A DNA stretch of 64,000 nt from an uncultured Pelagibacteraceae bacterium. GTDB taxonomy: Bacteria > Pseudomonadota > Alphaproteobacteria > Pelagibacterales > Pelagibacteraceae. The position numbers were made by a program, and so were the translations under genes. The notes below the pieces were generated by a model, which did no database searches, had not been told where the DNA came from, and worked only from the letters and a program-made list of their open reading frames with translations. Where the stretch lies: the NCBI GenBank assembly GCA_902545555.1, contig CACCGK010000001.1, positions 1-64,000 of the forward strand. The letters are read 5' to 3'. This document shows, in pieces, positions 11,775 through 56,096 of this stretch. Numbering within the stretch: the stretch's first letter is position 1; every line of letters begins with the position of its first letter.

Positions 11775-14000
11775 ATGCTCAAAAAAATATTATTTTTAGG
11801 TTACATCGTATCAATATTAATATTTTCAAATAATCTCTTTGCTGAAATCAATTCAGTTGTACCTTTAAAAAAACCTGTTTTAAGCAAAGAAGAAATTCAA
11901 AAGAAAATATCTATAAATATCCTTAAGCCATTAAAGAAGCCCAAGAAAACCAAAGAAATTAAAATCGAAGAAGTGATTGTTAAAAAAGAGTTGGTTTTAA
12001 AAGAAAAAAAATTAAGTTTTAAAATACCGAAGAAAAAACCAACTATAGCTGGCACTAGCACAGCTAAAAATATTAAGATTTCAAGATATTATAGCAAAAA
12101 AGACTTTGGGCTAGCTAAAAAGGCCATTTCAGAAATGCAAAAAAGCAAATGGTCATCTGCACTTAAAATAGCAAAAAAAGCAAAAGATAACTCTATTTAT
12201 AATTTTATACAATGGAGACATCTTTTAACGTCAGGTAACCAGGCGTCTTTTTACGATTATCAAGTTTTTTTAAATAAAAATCCAGATTATCCTAGAATAA
12301 GCAGAGTTAAATATCTTGCTGAGCATAAACTATCCACGGAGAGTGTTTCACCTAAAAAAATAATAAAATGGTTTGGTGAAAATGATCCATTAAGTGGTTA
12401 TGGAAAAATGATACTTGGAGAAAGTCATATTTTAATTGGAGACAAAAATAAAGGTACAAAACTAATTAAAGAAGGTTGGGTTACAGCAGATTTATCCAAA
12501 AATGAATTAAAATATTTTAGAAAAAAATATAAAAAATATTTAAATGCTGATGACTATATTAAACGAGCTGATTATTTAGCTTGGAATGGGGATCATTGGG
12601 ATTTACGAAGGTTAATAAGGTATCTGCCAAAAGATTACGAACTTTTATATAATGCAAGACATCTTTTAATGACCAAAGGTTATGGGGTTGACCAAGCTAT
12701 AGCAAATGTTCCTCAAAAATTTAAGAATGATGCTGGTTTAAACTATGACCGATTGAAATGGAGAAGAAAAAAAGGACGTGTAGATTCTTCAACAGAAATC
12801 TTATTAAAAATAAGAAATGATAAAGAGTATTTAGTTAGGCCTGACAAATGGTGGAAAGAAAGAGAAATTATCTCAAGAGCATTGCTTTATAAAAAGAAAT
12901 ATGAAATTTCATATAAAATTTCAAGTAATCATGGAATGACTGAAGGAGCTGAATATGCAGCTGCTGAATGGATGAGTGGATGGATAGCTTTAAGTTTTTT
13001 AAATGATCCAATAACTGCTAAAAATCATTTTAGAAATTTTTATGAAAATGTTAGTTATCCAATAAGTTTGTCTAGAGGTGCCTATTGGCTTGGGAGAGCA
13101 TATGAGAAAATAGGCGAAAGAGAGCAATCAAATAATTGGTACAGAGAAGCCACAAAATATCTTACTACTTACTATGGTCAGCTAGCTTTTTTAAAATTAA
13201 ATCCAAATGGAAAATTTGAGTTAGAAAAAGATATGGAAATTGATCCAAAATATAGAATTCAATTTTTTAATAAAGAGCTTGTAAAAATTTCTTATCTTCT
13301 AGATGAATTAAAGAAAGACAAATATACAAAACATATTTTAAGGCATTTAGCTAACGACAATATAGCTAAGGGCAGTGAAGTTTTGGCTGCAGAATTAGCT
13401 ACAAGCATAAACAGATATGACTTTGCTATTCAGGTTTCAAAAATTGCGTCTTATCAAAAAAGATTTCATAATAAATACAATTATCCAATAATTAGTACTC
13501 CTAAATATATTAATAAAAGAAAAATTCCAGAAAGTGCTTTGATCTTATCTATAATTAGACAAGAAAGTGAATTTGATTTGGAAGCTAATAGTCATGCTGG
13601 TGCAAAAGGATTAATGCAATTGATGCCCTACACAGCAAAATTAGTTTCAAAACAAGCCAAACTTCCTTATTCAAAATCAAGATTAACCACTGATCCAGAA
13701 TATAATATTAATTTAGGCTCACATTATATTGCAGGTTTAATTCTACAATACGATGGCGCATACCCTTTTGCAGTTGCTGCTTATAATGCTGGACCCAACA
13801 GAGTTAAATATTGGAAAAAAATAAATAAAGATCCACAAAAAAAACAAGTTGATTATGTTGATTGGGTTGAATTAATTAAATTTAGAGAAACAAGAAATTA
13901 CGTACAACGTGTTATGGAAAATTATAATGTATATAGATATATTTTGGAACAACGGCCTGTACCAATGATAAACTTTTTTAAAGATCAGCCTCTATTTTAG
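11775..14000 (+). CDS. Lytic murein transglycosylase (soluble Slt70 type)
   Basis: The enzyme cleaves peptidoglycan glycan strands in the periplasm. An N-terminal hydrophobic stretch ending in NNLFA/E is a likely signal peptide (residues 1-23), followed by a lysine- and proline-rich linker. A long alpha-helical superhelical region (about 90-570) precedes the C-terminal SLT catalytic domain, where ALILSIIRQESEFD contains the catalytic E597 and GAKGLMQLMPYTA, LGSHYIAGL and AVAAYNAGPNRV follow. The architecture matches Slt70. The stop codon is followed immediately by the 3' end of tRNA-Ser on the other strand. Confidence 0.93.
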   Translation: MLKKILFLGYIVSILIFSNNLFAEINSVVPLKKPVLSKEEIQKKISINILKPLKKPKKTKEIKIEEVIVKKELVLKEKKLSFKIPKKKPTIAGTSTAKNIKISRYYSKKDFGLAKKAISEMQKSKWSSALKIAKKAKDNSIYNFIQWRHLLTSGNQASFYDYQVFLNKNPDYPRISRVKYLAEHKLSTESVSPKKIIKWFGENDPLSGYGKMILGESHILIGDKNKGTKLIKEGWVTADLSKNELKYFRKKYKKYLNADDYIKRADYLAWNGDHWDLRRLIRYLPKDYELLYNARHLLMTKGYGVDQAIANVPQKFKNDAGLNYDRLKWRRKKGRVDSSTEILLKIRNDKEYLVRPDKWWKEREIISRALLYKKKYEISYKISSNHGMTEGAEYAAAEWMSGWIALSFLNDPITAKNHFRNFYENVSYPISLSRGAYWLGRAYEKIGEREQSNNWYREATKYLTTYYGQLAFLKLNPNGKFELEKDMEIDPKYRIQFFNKELVKISYLLDELKKDKYTKHILRHLANDNIAKGSEVLAAELATSINRYDFAIQVSKIASYQKRFHNKYNYPIISTPKYINKRKIPESALILSIIRQESEFDLEANSHAGAKGLMQLMPYTAKLVSKQAKLPYSKSRLTTDPEYNINLGSHYIAGLILQYDGAYPFAVAAYNAGPNRVKYWKKINKDPQKKQVDYVDWVELIKFRETRNYVQRVMENYNVYRYILEQRPVPMINFFKDQPLF

Positions 14001-14092
14001 TGGCGGAAGAGGAGGGATTCGAACCCTCGGTACAAGTTTCCTCGCACGGTCATTTAGCAAACGACTGGTTTCAGCCTCTCACCCACTCTTCC
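14001..14092 (-). tRNA. tRNA-Ser (anticodon GCU)
   Basis: The minus strand folds as a class II tRNA of 92 nt with the 3' CCA encoded. The acceptor stem is GGAAGAG paired with CTCTTCC, and the TTCGAATC T-loop lies in the GAGGGTTCGAATCCCTC arm. The anticodon loop is TTTGCTAAA, giving GCU. The long variable arm is typical of serine tRNA. Its CCA end touches the stop codon of the transglycosylase gene. Confidence 0.95.
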
Positions 14093-14159: not shown

Positions 14160-15413
14160 ATGAGAAATAAGTACTCAGTATTTTCGTTAATTAAAAATGC
14201 TATTTCATATCATGAAAATTGGCAAAGAGCATGGAAAGATCCTGCTCCTAAAAAAGAGTACGATGCAATAATTGTTGGTGGTGGTGGCCACGGATTAGCA
14301 ACAGCCTATTATTTAGCAAAAAAACACAACATGAATAATATTGCTGTAGTCGAGAAAGGTTGGATTGGTGGTGGAAATACTGGTCGTAATACTACTATAA
14401 TTAGATCAAATTATTTATGGGACGCCAGTGCGGGTTTATATGATCATGCGTTAAAAATTTGGGAAGGTTTATCTCAAGAATTAAACTACAATGTAATGTT
14501 TAGTCAAAGAGGCGTAATGAATCTTGCACATAATTTACAAGATGTTAGAGATTTAAAAAGAAGAACACATGCAAATAGACTAAATGGAATTGATGCGGTT
14601 TACTTAAGTACCGAAGAGGTAAAAAAGTTTTGTCCAATTATAAATACATCACCAGATATTAGATATCCTGTTTTAGGAGGAACTTTACAACGAAGAGCTG
14701 GTACAGCAAGACACGATGCAGTTGCTTGGGGATATGCAAGAGGAGCTGATGCAATGGGTGTTGATATTATTCAAAATTGTGAAGTTAAAGGAATAAAAAG
14801 AAATGGAGATAGTGTTGAAGGAATAGAAACAACAAAAGGATTTATAAAAACTAAGAAAGTTGGTGTAGTTGCAGCTGGTCATTCTAGTGTAATAGCTAAT
14901 ATGGCTGGTCTAAGACTTCCACTTGAAAGTAAACCTTTACAGGCTTTAGTTTCTGAACCTGTAAAACCAATTATTGATACAGTTGTAATGTCTAATGCAG
15001 TACATGCTTATGTTAGTCAATCTGACAAAGGAGAATTAGTCATTGGTGCTGGAACAGATGATTATGTTTCTTATACTCAAAAAGGTAGTCATCAAATAGT
15101 TGAAGGAACACTAAATGCTATTTTAGAATTATATCCAATTTTCAGTAGAATGAGAATGTTAAGACAGTGGGGAGGAATAGTAGATATTTGTCCTGACGCT
15201 AGTCCAATTTTAAGTAAAACTTCCATTAAAGGATTATACTTTAATTGTGGTTGGGGTACTGGAGGATTTAAAGCAACTCCTGGATCAGGAGATTTATTTG
15301 CTCACACTATTGCAAACGATGAACCCCACAAACTTAATGCTGCATTTAATTTAAATAGATTTGTAAGCGGAGACCTTGTTGATGAGCATGGTGCTGCAGC
15401 AGTTGCTCATTAA
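14160..15413 (+). CDS. soxB: Sarcosine oxidase beta subunit
   Basis: SoxB is the FAD/FMN subunit of heterotetrameric sarcosine oxidase, which demethylates sarcosine to glycine and feeds formaldehyde into the folate pool. The 417 residues contain the dinucleotide fold [18 protein letters not shown] (residues 35-52), [15 protein letters not shown] and the conserved [14 protein letters not shown], where H185 corresponds to the histidine that carries covalent FMN in characterised enzymes. The C-terminal [13 protein letters not shown] and [14 protein letters not shown] blocks are intact. Its TAA overlaps the ATG of soxD. The gene looks complete, unlike its downstream partners. Confidence 0.95.
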
Positions 15414-15580
15414 TGTTTTTAATAAACTGTCCATACTGTGGAGAACGAGATCAGCAAGAATTTAAGGCTGGTGGTGAAGCTCATATCGAGAGACCTAAAC
15501 AACCAACAGAATTAAGTGATGATGAGTGGGCAGAATATTTATTTATGGGAAAAGTGCATAGAAGCAGGTCGAGAGTTTAA
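15413..15580 (+). pseudogene. soxD: Truncated sarcosine oxidase delta subunit (soxD 5' part)
   Basis: The ATG at 15413 overlaps the soxB stop. The first 45 residues are recognisable SoxD, with the zinc-binding NCPYCGERDQQEF, GGEAHIERP and LSDDEWAEYLFM. Full-length SoxD has about 90-100 residues and more conserved sequence after YLF. Here the reading continues for only ten unrelated residues to a stop at 15578-15580. From about 15537 the DNA is soxA coding sequence in another frame. The break is at the TATTTATTTATG stretch (15536-15547). The gene is therefore 3'-truncated by a deletion or by an assembly error. Confidence 0.85.
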
Positions 15581-16052
15581 CATTACGCCTTATGGAACTG
15601 AAACAATGCACTTATTAAGAGCAGAAAAAGGTTTCATAATTGTAGGACAAGATACAGATGGAACAATGACTCCTATCGATCTTCAAATGGATTGGATAGT
15701 AAGTAAGAAGAAATACGATTTCATAGGAAAAAGATCTCTTTATAGATCTGATACAATGAGAGAAGATAGAAAGCAATTAATAGGTTTATTAACTGATGAT
15801 CCAAATATTGTTTTAGAAGAAGGAGCACAAATAGTTTCTGAGTTAAATCAAAGTCCAGTAGAAATGCTTGGACATGTAACTTCAAGTTATTTCAGTCCAA
15901 ACCTAAAGAAATCAATAGCACTTGCAGTAGTTAGAGGTGGAAAAGATATGATGGGAAAAAAACTTTTTGTGCCCATGGAAAATAAAAATATTAATGTCAC
16001 TGTTGCGAATCCAGTATTTTATGATGAGAAAAATGAGAGGTTAAATGCTTAA
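15516..16052 (+). pseudogene. soxA: C-terminal remnant of sarcosine oxidase alpha subunit (soxA)
   Basis: From about 15537 the frame encodes YLWEKCIEAGREF, ITPYGTETMHLLRAEKGF, IIVGQDTDGT and IGKRSLYR, the C-terminal GcvT-like (folate-binding) part of SoxA. About 170 residues remain, whereas the complete subunit has about 950-1000, so the N-terminal thioredoxin-like/ferredoxin-like and NAD-binding domains are missing. The apparent ATG cluster at 15516 belongs to soxD sequence read out of frame and is not a credible native start. There are no internal stops or frameshifts in the remnant, so the loss is recent or an assembly artefact. It overlaps the start of soxG by eight bases, as in intact operons. 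Confidence 0.85.
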
Positions 16053-16608
16053 CTATAATTCAGTTATTAAAAATGAAATTAAGCACGAAAGTATTTCTGT
16101 AAAGGAAATCTCTCCAGTAATAAAAATTAATTTGAGAGGTAAAAAAAGAGAATTTTTAACAAATGTTGGTAAAAATCTTAACATGATCTTACCTACAGAA
16201 GCAAACACTTCAACAACAAGTGATAAATTAACAGCAATATGGCTTAGCCCAGACGAATGGATGATAATCTCAAATGAGCTGGCAAGTAAAGACACAAATA
16301 AATCCGATCTATATGAAATGTTATTTAATAGTATTTCAAAAACAAATTTAGGTGCTGCTATAGATGTAACAGATCAATTTGTTCAATTAGAACTTAAAGG
16401 TGAAAATGTCTATGAAATTTTTTCAGCAGGATCTCCCTTTAATTTTAATGAATTTAAAGAAAAAAAAGGATCAACAACTCAGACAGTTTTAAATCATGTA
16501 GATGTAATTCTGCAACATAAAGATGAAAATATTTTAAATCTGTTTGTTAGAAGATCTTTTGCTGAACACCTTTTCTCATGGATTGAAGACTGTGCTTCAA
16601 GATTATAA
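16045..16608 (+). CDS. soxG: Sarcosine oxidase gamma subunit
   Basis: SoxG is the small GcvT-like subunit of heterotetrameric sarcosine oxidase. The 187 residues show AIWLSPDEWMIIS, AAIDVTDQFVQLELKG and the C-terminal HVDVILQHKDENILNLFVRRSFAEHLFSW pattern of the family. The gene looks complete and lies in the expected last position of soxBDAG. Without an intact alpha subunit it would have no partner. It ends two bases before the stop of the convergent nuclease gene. Confidence 0.88.
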   Translation: MLNYNSVIKNEIKHESISVKEISPVIKINLRGKKREFLTNVGKNLNMILPTEANTSTTSDKLTAIWLSPDEWMIISNELASKDTNKSDLYEMLFNSISKTNLGAAIDVTDQFVQLELKGENVYEIFSAGSPFNFNEFKEKKGSTTQTVLNHVDVILQHKDENILNLFVRRSFAEHLFSWIEDCASRL

Positions 16609-16610
16609 AC

Positions 16611-17138
16611 TTATTTTTTTCTTCTAAAGTCCCATGGCATTTCAAATTTACCTTGCCAAAGGCCTTTTTTTTCATTTTTAGCATTAATTTCGTTTGATAT
16701 ATATTTTTTTGAGTATTTTCTATAAGCTACTGCATAACCGTTTGAAACTAGCCAAGAATTCAGATTTAAATTTCTTTTATAGCACTCTCCAATTAATCTT
16801 TTATATCTATCAATATCCAAAATTTTACAAGTTATTACTTTGTTATTTATTTTTTTTTTTAATTTTTGAGTTGAAATTTTTCCACATGGATAATCTTTAG
16901 TAAAAGTAAAAAAAATTATTGTTAAATATGGTTTTTTACACATTTGCTTAAATTCAGGTGCATCAATTCCATGCAATCTTATCTTTTTTGAATTTATTTT
17001 TATTGTATCACCATCAATAATTTGAGCATTTCCAGAAATTTCTTTAATCTCTTCAGACCTAACATCGTTATATGTGAGAATAAAAAAAATCGAACAGATT
17101 ATAATTAATATTATCGCTTTCCTTTTTGTAAAAAACAT
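16611..17138 (-). CDS. Thermonuclease-family (SNase-like) secreted or membrane-anchored nuclease
   Basis: A staphylococcal-nuclease fold is indicated by QIIDGDTIKINSKKIRLHGIDAPE and DIDRYKRLIGECY, which hold the Arg/Glu and second Arg expected at the active site, and by WLVSNGYAVAYRKYSK. An N-terminal hydrophobic segment (about 8-24) should export or anchor it, so it probably acts in the periplasm on nucleic acids. At 175 residues it is the normal size for small bacterial members. A nutrient-scavenging role is plausible but not shown. Confidence 0.85.
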   Translation of the reverse strand: MFFTKRKAIILIIICSIFFILTYNDVRSEEIKEISGNAQIIDGDTIKINSKKIRLHGIDAPEFKQMCKKPYLTIIFFTFTKDYPCGKISTQKLKKKINNKVITCKILDIDRYKRLIGECYKRNLNLNSWLVSNGYAVAYRKYSKKYISNEINAKNEKKGLWQGKFEMPWDFRRKK

Positions 17139-51917: not shown

Positions 51918-54900
51918 TTACTGATTTGTCTGTGTTTCTTCAGGTTCTGAAGCTTCTATTTTATCCTGCTCAGCTAAGAAATTATTATCATCCTCTAGAG
52001 CTTTATTGTTCCATCTATTTTTAATATTACCAGTACCTGCAGGAACTAATCTTCCAACAATTACGTTCTCTTTTAGCCCATTTAATGGGTCAACTTTTCC
52101 TTTAATTGCAGCATCAGTTAATACTCTTGTTGTTTCTTGGAACGAAGCAGCTGAAATAAACGACTCAGTTTGAAGTGAGGCTTTAGTGATACCCATCAGA
52201 ACTCTCTCACCAACAGCAGGGGTTTTGCCTTCAGCAACTAATTTTTCGTTTGTATTATCAAATTTAATTCTATCAATCACTTCACCAGGTAAATAACTTG
52301 AGTCACCTGACACTTTTACTTCAACCTTTTTAAGCATTTGTCTTAAAATAGTTTCAATGTGTTTATCATTTATAATTACACCTTGTAATCTATAGACTTC
52401 TTGAACTTGGTTAACAAAGTATTCCGTTAATTCTTTAATACCTAAAATTCTTAAAATATCATGTGGCAATGGCTGACCATCAAGAAGATATTCTCCTTTT
52501 TGAATTTTTTCACCGGGGTTGAAATTGATATGTTTACCTTTTGGAATTAAATAATTTGAAGGTTCTGATCCATCTTCAGGAACAATAGATACTCTTTGTT
52601 TACCTCTTACCTCTTTACCAAATACAACACTACCATCATTTTCAGCAATGATTGCGCTGTCCTTAGCTTTTCTAGCTTCAAATAACTCAGCAACTCTTGG
52701 AAGACCTCCGGTAATATCTTTTGTTTTTGTAGTTTCCTTAGGTAATCTTGCAATTACGTCACCAGCATAAACTTTTTGACCATCTTTAATTGATAAAATC
52801 GAATCTGGCACTAAATAATATCTAGCTTCATTATCATCAGCTTTTTTAATTACATTTCCTTTTTCATCTCTAAGAGTAATTCTAGGTTTTAAATCAGTGC
52901 TTTTTGATTGACCTCTCCAATCAATTACTGATTTAGAAGAAATTCCTGTTGCATCGTCAGTAGTTTCTTGAATTGAAACACCGTCAATTAGATCTACATA
53001 ACTAGCTGTACCACTTTTCTCTGCTATAACTGGTGTTGTGTAAGGATCCCATTCACATATTTTAGTATTCGCTTTTACTTTATCACCGTTATTAAAAAAT
53101 AATCTTGATCCATATGCAACTTTATAAACTGCAATTTGAACTCCATTATCATCCTCAATTGAAAGCTGAGTATTTCTACCCATTACAATTAAATTCTTTT
53201 TAGAATCCTCTAATATATTTGAGTTTATAATTTTTAATGTTCCTTCATTTTTAGTTACAATTTGTGAGTCCTGTTTAACAGAAGCAGTTCCACCTACGTG
53301 GAAAGTTCTCATTGTTAACTGTGTTCCTGGTTCCCCGATTGACTGTGCAGAAATCATTCCAATAGCTTCACCAACGTGAACCATTTTACCTCTAGATAAA
53401 TCTCTTCCATAAGAAGTAGCACAAACACCTTCTTTTGAACCACAAGTCATTACTGAGTAAACTTTTATTGATTTTACCCCTGCAGCATCAATTTTATCGC
53501 ATCCAGCCTCATCGATCATGGTTTGTTTTTTGATTATTACTTCGCCAGTTAAAGGATGTTTAACTTCATCAAATGTAACCCTGCCTAGCGCTCTTTCAGA
53601 AAGGCTAACTACTACATTACCACCTTCTAAAATTTCAGAAAGTTCAATAAATCCTGGATTTTTACAGTCACAATCTTTTTTGGTGACAGTTAAATCTTGA
53701 GCTACATCGCAAAGTCTTCTCGTCAAATATCCAGAACTAGCTGTTTTAAGTGCTGTATCTGCTAACCCTTTTCTAGCTCCGTGGGTTGAATTAAAGTATT
53801 CTAAAGCAGTTAATCCCTCTTTAAAGTTTGAAATAATTGGACTTTCGATAATTTCTCCTGACGGTTTAGCAATCAAACCTCTCATACCAGCTAATTGTTT
53901 CATTTGAGCAGCAGATCCTCTAGCTCCACTGTCTGCCATCATAAATACAGAATTTATTTTCAATCCTTCGTCAGTTTTTTCTGTAGCTGAAATTCCTTTC
54001 ATCATTTCTCCAGCAACTTTATCTGTACACTTAGACCAAGCATCAACAACCTTGTTGTATTTTTCACCTCTTGTAATTAAACCTTCGGCATATTGTGTTT
54101 CATAATCCGCAATTAATTTCTTAGTATCATCAATTAATTGGGTTTTATTTGCAGGGATTACAAGATCATCTTTTCCAAACGAAATTCCTGCTTTAAACGC
54201 ATGTTTAAATCCTAAATCCTTCAGCTTATCACAGAAAATTACAGTTGTTTTTTGACCACAAAATCTAAATACAACATCAATTATTTCTGAAACTACTTTT
54301 TTAGGTAATAATCTATCTACTAAAGAAAACTTAATGTTACTATTTTTAGGTAATAAATTTGCTAATAAAAATCTTCCAGCTGTAGAAATATATTTTTCTA
54401 TTTTCTTATTCCCTTCTTCATCTACAGTCTCGTATCTTGAAATGATAGTGCTATGTACATTTATTTGACCAGATGATAATGCAAATTCAATTTGATCTGA
54501 ATTTGTAAAGTATCCAGCTGGTTTATCAGATATAGGTTCTTGTGACAGGTAGTAGATTCCTAATATCATATCCTGACTCGGAACAATAATTGGTTTACCG
54601 TTTGATGGAGAGAGAATATTATTTGTAGATAACATTAAAATTCTTGCCTCTAATTGTGCTTCTAAACTTAACGGTACGTGCACTGCCATTTGGTCACCAT
54701 CGAAGTCAGCGTTAAATGCTGCACAAGTTAAAGGGTGTAATTCAATTGCATCTCCTTCAATTAATTTTGGCTCAAAAGCTTGAACTCCAAGTCTATGAAG
54801 TGTTGGTGCTCTATTTAAAAGTACCGGATGCTCTCTAACTATTAATTCTAAAGCGTCCCAAACTGCATTTGTTTCTTTTTCAACTAATTTTTTAGCTTGT

Positions 54901-56096
54901 TTAATTGTTGAAGCTAAGCCTAATTTATTTAATCTTGCATATAAAAATGGTTTAAATAACTCAAGAGCCATTTTTTTGGGCAAACCACACTCATGTAGTT
55001 TCAAATCAGGACCAACAACAATTACTGATCTTCCAGAATAATCAACTCGTTTACCTAATAAATTTTGTCTAAATCTTCCTTGTTTACCTTTTAACATTTC
55101 AGCAAGAGATTTAAGTGGTCGCTTACCTGTTCCTGTTATTACCCTACCTCTTCTACCGTTATCAAATAGAGCATCTACAGACTCTTGAAGCATCCTTTTT
55201 TCATTTCTCACAATGATATCTGGAGCCTTAAGATCCATTAATCTTTTTAATCTGTTATTTCTGTTAATTACTCTTCTGTATAAATCGTTAAGATCTGAAG
55301 TGGCAAATCTTCCACCGTCTAGAGGAACTAATGGTCTTAGTTCTGGTGGTATAACTGGTACAACAGTCATAATCATCCACTCAGGTTTTTGACCTGTTTC
55401 AATAAATGACTCTATTAATTTTAATCTTTTAATCGCTCTTTCTTCATTAACTTTTGATTTGGTTTCTTTAATAAAGCTAACAAGATTTTTTCTTTCTAAT
55501 TCTAAATCTAAATTTTTCAGCATCTCAAGAACCGCTTCTGCTCCTATTCCCGCTGTAAAACTTTCTTCACCAAACTCATCCTGGTATTTTGCTAATTCTT
55601 CCTCGTTTAAGAGTTGATTTTTTTGTAAACCAGTTAAACCAGGTTCTATTACTATAAAGTTTTCAAAATAAAGAACTCTCTCTATTTCTTTTAATTTCAT
55701 GTCTACTGCTAAAGCAATTCTGCTTGGAAGAGACTTTAAGAACCAAATATGTGCTACCGGTGTAGCAAGATTAATGTGGCCCATTCTTTCTCTTCTTACA
55801 TTTGATTTTGTAACCTCAACACCACATTTCTCACATATAATCCCTCTAAATTTCATTCTTTTGTACTTACCGCATAAACACTCATAATCTTTTATTGGTC
55901 CAAAAATTCTTGCACAGAACAAACCATCTTTTTCAGGTCTAAACGTTCTATAATTAATTGTTTCAGGCTTTTTAATTTCACCAAATGTCCAAGATTTTAT
56001 TTTCTCTGGGCTAGCAAGTGAAATTTTAATGCTGTTAAAATTTTGAGCTTCTGAAATTTCGCTGCCCTTAAATAGATCTGTTAATTCTTTTTTCAT
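51918..56096 (-). CDS. rpoC: DNA-directed RNA polymerase beta' subunit
   Basis: The catalytic [12 protein letters not shown] block holds the three Mg-binding aspartates. The N-terminal zinc finger is [20 protein letters not shown], and the second zinc site has CDCKNPG with later CGSKEGVC. The bridge/trigger region includes [16 protein letters not shown]. 1392 residues. It shares one base with rpoB. Confidence 0.98.

Follow-up and report, generated by a model that had tools for sequence, protein, structure and literature searches.

The stretch of DNA that we analysed (the window) comprises the initial 64 kb of a contig of 199,946 bp, in a draft genome of 1.05 Mb that consists of 43 contigs and is 77% complete. 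A search with the tail of SoxA placed its nearest named relatives among assemblies of the Pelagibacteraceae (SAR11), bacteria that are abundant in the ocean. On its forward strand, the window carries a broken operon for a heterotetrameric sarcosine oxidase (hereafter Sox1). The first gene, soxB (14160..15413), encodes an intact beta subunit of 417 aa, which matches TIGR01373 with 713.8 bits (cut-off 529.45) and has 2gag_B as its closest solved relative (582.5 bits). The last gene, soxG (16045..16608), encodes an intact gamma subunit that matches PF04268 with 46.4 bits (cut-off 21), and its start overlaps the soxA stop. Against TIGR01375, 9-150 of 152 positions of the profile were matched at 73.5 bits, below the cut-off of 143.95. 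An open soxG frame of 187 codons is present in 74 of the 75 relatives that span the site; the stretch of the other ends there and was unscored.

Between these two genes, the operon falls short of a full set of four intact subunit genes, with soxD reduced to 45 of 91 codons and soxA to about 168 of about 1000. The 5' remnant of soxD (15413..15547) covers positions 1-45 of 82 in PF04267, and its out-of-frame tail continues to a stop at 15580, yielding an ORF of 55 aa (15413-15580). The 3' remnant of soxA (15548..16052) matches TIGR01372 positions 825-995 of 996 and includes the end of the folate-binding domain (PF01571 positions 203-254 of 255) and the C-terminal barrel (PF08669 positions 1-80 of 80). 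The remnants lie in different frames and meet at a junction (15541..15547), ATTTATG, which is common to the parental soxD and soxA sites of the relatives. The ORF that carries the SoxA tail (15516-16052, 178 aa) is open, with a GTG at 15516. Overall, the profile matches agreed well with the original prediction, made from the sequence of the locus, in which soxB and soxG were complete, SoxD was recognisable for only 45 residues, and the C-terminal ~170 residues of SoxA followed in another frame.

The gene order B-D-A-G is shared with the heterotetrameric sarcosine oxidases soxBDAG (2GAG, 1VRQ) and, according to the available part of a SAR11 study, with the operons SAR11_1064-1067 and SAR11_1281-1284 (PMC3160333). 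Unlike in all of these, soxD and soxA of the window are cut and joined. To characterize the break, we used relatives fetched by the SoxA tail, namely the best 80 of 547 confirmed loci, a selection that may leave out records very near the window. The comparison set is formed by the 75 loci that span both sides of the site; the remaining five, L044, L074, L083, L099 and L108, lack a left match and sit on contigs that end 1.3-2.5 kb upstream, inside soxA. Aligned with the 75 relatives, the window forms two blocks that meet at 15541-15553, with a single stretch missing, in line with the predicted deletion between soxD and the end of soxA. All 75 loci match the window on the left up to 15553; on the right, the match begins at 15541 in 64 loci and within 15543-15546 in the other 11. 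The missing length is 2643 bp in 68 relatives, 2647 bp in four, 2644 bp in two and 2642 bp in one; the deletion had been estimated at half of soxD plus roughly 2.5 kb of soxA, a size that we refine to about 2643 bp in all. SoxD is 90-91 aa long in every spanning relative, and soxA is open over at least 1001 codons in 73 of them. In L043 and L056, soxA has a one-base frame break with both parts otherwise intact, reflecting indel errors or recent mutations. The surroundings of the operon also vary, with accessory insertions before soxB (window 13999-14001; 1.5 kb in G424 and 5.0 kb in G423) and after soxG (window 16609-16615; about 1.3 kb in L059, L085, L090 and L092).

The parental soxD site reads ATTTATGAGAAAA in 68 of the 75 spanning relatives and ends in ATGAGAAAA in all of them, and the parental soxA site, ATTTATGGGAAAA, is identical to the window in 43. 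The two sites share 7 exact bases (15541-15547) within a 12/13 match. At 15541-15553, the window carries the soxA version of this imperfect repeat, which places the switch point within ATTTATG, as far as the relatives represent the lost parent. The comparison with related genomes recommended in the original prediction thus yielded both intact relatives and microhomology at the two breakpoints. The proposed junction, TATTTATTTATG, said to be readable in both frames, was attributed to a short direct repeat; the repeat was confirmed, but the sharing of all 12 bases was not, as both parental sites have only the last 7 (ATTTATG) in common and TATTT belongs to soxD alone. In short-direct-repeat deletions of bacterial genomes, one copy of the repeat stays and the DNA between the copies is lost. 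Similarly, one parental copy remains at the window's joint and the intervening DNA is absent, although the repeat is short (7 exact bases) for a span of 2.6 kb and the event is seen in an assembly only. The repeat itself is unexceptional: the 5094-bp operon of the intact relative L041 contains 57 pairs of 13-mers located 0.5-5 kb apart that differ at no more than one position, as well as 37 maximal exact repeats of 10 bp or longer.

The SoxD of an intact relative aligns with 1vrq_D over 1-89, and in the intact SoxD of L041 the residues C6, C9, H59 and C63, which we take to be zinc ligands, all align with 1vrq_D and 2gag_D. The remnant retains residues 1-45 only, such that H59 and C63 are lost. 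If the deletion is real, SoxA is missing its first ~830 residues and SoxD these two residues, and no Sox1 tetramer could form. The open 178-aa frame could instead reflect an established remodelling of the lineage, either a fusion of soxD and soxA or a free C-terminal SoxA domain starting from the GTG at 15516. We consider such remodelling very unlikely, given that the frames of the two parts differ, that only profile positions 203-254 of 255 are left of the cut folate-binding domain, that none of the 398 other genomes of the genus has the junction, and that no private change points to a new role. A functional soxD-soxA fusion was rejected outright on account of the frames.

To estimate how widespread the break is, we searched 399 genomes of the genus. 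The junction pattern (at most 3 mismatches) was matched in one, the window's own. The pattern of the intact soxD site was present in 311 of the 399 genomes, and in 54 of the 57 with a completeness of 90% or more. The 88 genomes without it, again including the window's own, would fit a genus that often lacks or loses the operon, with the window capturing one stage of ordinary decay. However, only three of the 57 high-quality genomes are without the pattern, and these can be explained by incompleteness: in G390, soxB and the end of soxA lie on separate contigs, and G130 and G189 show only the paralogous operon. The Sox1 operon is near-core in the genus and its break is seen once; we regard ordinary decay as exceedingly improbable. 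The confinement of the joint to one assembly favors an artefact and counts against a real deletion.

The age of the event was examined through substitutions private to the window. The soxD remnant, the soxA remnant and soxG show none relative to 64 relatives, and soxB has two, both silent. The test is low in power, since the neighbouring intact nuclease gene also shows no private changes (51 relatives). Such a lack of private change is compatible with an event that happened very recently and with an artefact; it favors the latter and, as the remnants display no sign of relaxed selection, weighs somewhat against a real deletion. The absence of decay and the single occurrence of the junction also accord with the earlier proposal that the change is recent, polymorphic or an assembly artefact.

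A real, recent and unfixed deletion in the ancestry of the cell, arising by replication slippage or by microhomology joining between two short repeats, is a possibility that we take seriously, though with some doubt. It would have eliminated the latter half of soxD along with the first ~83% of soxA; no alpha subunit and no Sox1 complex would remain, delta would keep half of its presumed zinc site, and Sox2, encoded by a second operon on contig C4, would be untouched. The exact parental sites at both ends agree with such a deletion, as does the collinearity of the window with its relatives elsewhere, gene-border insertions aside. In its favor, too, a search of the same assembly for the missing segment recovered only three pieces of the C4 paralog, at ~70-75%, and one 53-base match on contig C17. 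There was no orphan contig with the missing 2630 bp, although the assembly includes contigs down to 2110 bp; this speaks against an artefact, even if an orphan trimmed at its ends would come near a 2-kb cut-off.

A real microhomology deletion and a chimera of phi29 amplification would look alike, and we consider it fairly probable that the 2643-bp gap is an artefact of amplification or assembly. Plate-well codes, which we take to mark single-cell assemblies, appear for all 80 of the nearest named relatives (the best 80 of 547), although 24 of the titles begin with 'MAG:'. We infer that the genome is of single-cell origin and that a template switch occurred at the 12/13 match. As phi29 polymerase amplified the DNA of one cell, a 3' end displaced within soxD, or within soxA on the opposite strand, would have re-annealed at the match between ATTTATGAGAAAA and ATTTATGGGAAAA and been extended across, and the assembly would have taken up the shortcut in place of the true locus. 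In that case, an intact Sox1 operon was probably present in the cell.

In the part of the report available, benchmark cultures processed with a single-cell workflow showed 0.9 mis-assemblies per 100 kb (PMC7507113), which over 1.05 Mb would amount to about 9, counting every kind. As described there, the same workflow trims contigs and discards those shorter than 2 kb (PMC7507113); the contig sizes here, the smallest being 2110 bp, fit this cut-off, and such trimming or discarding could have hidden the orphan segment. Chimeras of multiple displacement amplification (MDA) include direct joins of less than 10 kb as a known class, with shared bases in 90.9%, in the accessible portion of one study (PMC1855051). 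Similarly, the window's segments lie less than 10 kb apart (~2.6 kb) and are joined at a few shared bases (7 exact), and the commonest overlap among inverted MDA chimeras in a human data set was 7 nt, going by an excerpt of that work (PMC5372508). However, the window's joint, known from the assembly alone, is in direct orientation, a minority class: the cited portion counts only 11 of 475 chimeras as direct joins of less than 10 kb (PMC1855051), a rarity that favors a real deletion. The position of the junction within a contig of 199,946 bp also argues against an artefact.

We further looked for signs of rearrangement elsewhere. Inverted duplications, a sign of MDA rearrangement, were unremarkable in the window: the 17 pairs reach at most 38 nt, with 71-89% complementarity, and most of them are AT-rich. 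We scanned the window and portions of contigs C1, C2 and C4 against one to four relatives each, and the ~568 kb aligned, in which some stretches are repeated, contained no inversions and no other gaps of the window's assembly inside a relative's gene. Near 95.55 and 99.15 kb of C1, gaps of 85 and 631 bp truncate an ORF of a relative at its end, at places comparable with G425 alone. Near 17.1-17.8 kb of C2, both G424 and G425 have extra DNA, at different offsets. A 2.9-kb stretch of the same contig (40444-43353) is missing from all three relatives compared.

Comparing the window with G423, G424 (up to 51.3 kb), G425 and G426 (from 5.9 kb) revealed a similar loss in a relative. G426 (locus L082) is missing 622 bp, opposite window 53588-54209, inside the gene at window 51918-56096, which is rpoC (TIGR02386, 1695.7 bits, cut-off 963.5). 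The joint has 5 shared bases, and at this site the window is collinear with both G425 and G423. The frame is still open, with 1184 codons versus 1393, and the loss removes about residues 630-836, presumably the part that holds the bridge helix of RNA polymerase, without which a cell could hardly live. Since rpoC is essential, this deletion is almost surely an artefact of amplification or assembly. It was the only loss inside a window ORF among 84 targets (80 loci, the best of 547, plus four long stretches overlapping four of them; ~838 kb aligned), and no clearly real microhomology deletion was seen in the relatives' assemblies scanned. At least one assembly of the group, therefore, almost surely carries a microhomology deletion that is artificial, which supports an artefact in the window and weakens the case for a real deletion. 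The rpoC case turned our assessment: before it, we had placed a real deletion a shade above an even chance and an artefact a little below; with it, the artefact became fairly probable and a real deletion a doubtful possibility. An artefact, the reading that the original prediction had named last and a caution that was well placed, now looks the likeliest; the alternative is that a single line of cells lost the segment very recently. In a literature search on SAR11 sox genes or pseudogenes in single-cell genomes, none of the entries listed named the deletion.

The original prediction held that, if real, the change had cost the lineage a functional heterotetramer while two subunits were kept. 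Sox1 is indeed broken in the assembly, but this was overstated: a second operon, soxB2D2A2G2, is complete on C4, and a real deletion would remove no more than one of two heterotetramers. All four of its genes are open (418, 89, 998 and 195 aa). Its SoxA scores 1325.7 bits (cut-off 1164); its SoxD is above the Pfam cut-off and, at 109.6 bits, just under the NCBIfam cut-off of 116.5; its SoxG, at 62.9 bits, is under the cut-off of 143.95, yet covers 17-152 of 152 profile positions. The operon adjoins a gene for formate-tetrahydrofolate ligase, as does soxB2D2A2G2 of HTCC1062 in the portion of the study available (PMC3160333). If it is the counterpart of that operon, the broken one would correspond to SAR11_1064-1067. 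Which SAR11 operon is the sarcosine oxidase and which the N-methylglutamate dehydrogenase is left open in that portion (PMC3160333); the scores against 2gag_B (582.5 bits for the window's SoxB, 475.9 for SoxB2) give a weak hint that the broken operon may be the sarcosine oxidase proper.

By itself, the break has little significance, and it is ordinary whether artefact or real. In a draft, probably single-cell, SAR11 genome, an apparent gene loss can be an amplification joint, as the rpoC of a relative illustrates. A real break would amount to a natural knockout of one operon in a paralogous pair, the respective roles of which are left open in the cited part of the study (PMC3160333). We think it unlikely that such a knockout is real and segregating; if it were, its holder would show which SAR11 operon oxidises sarcosine and which N-methylglutamate.
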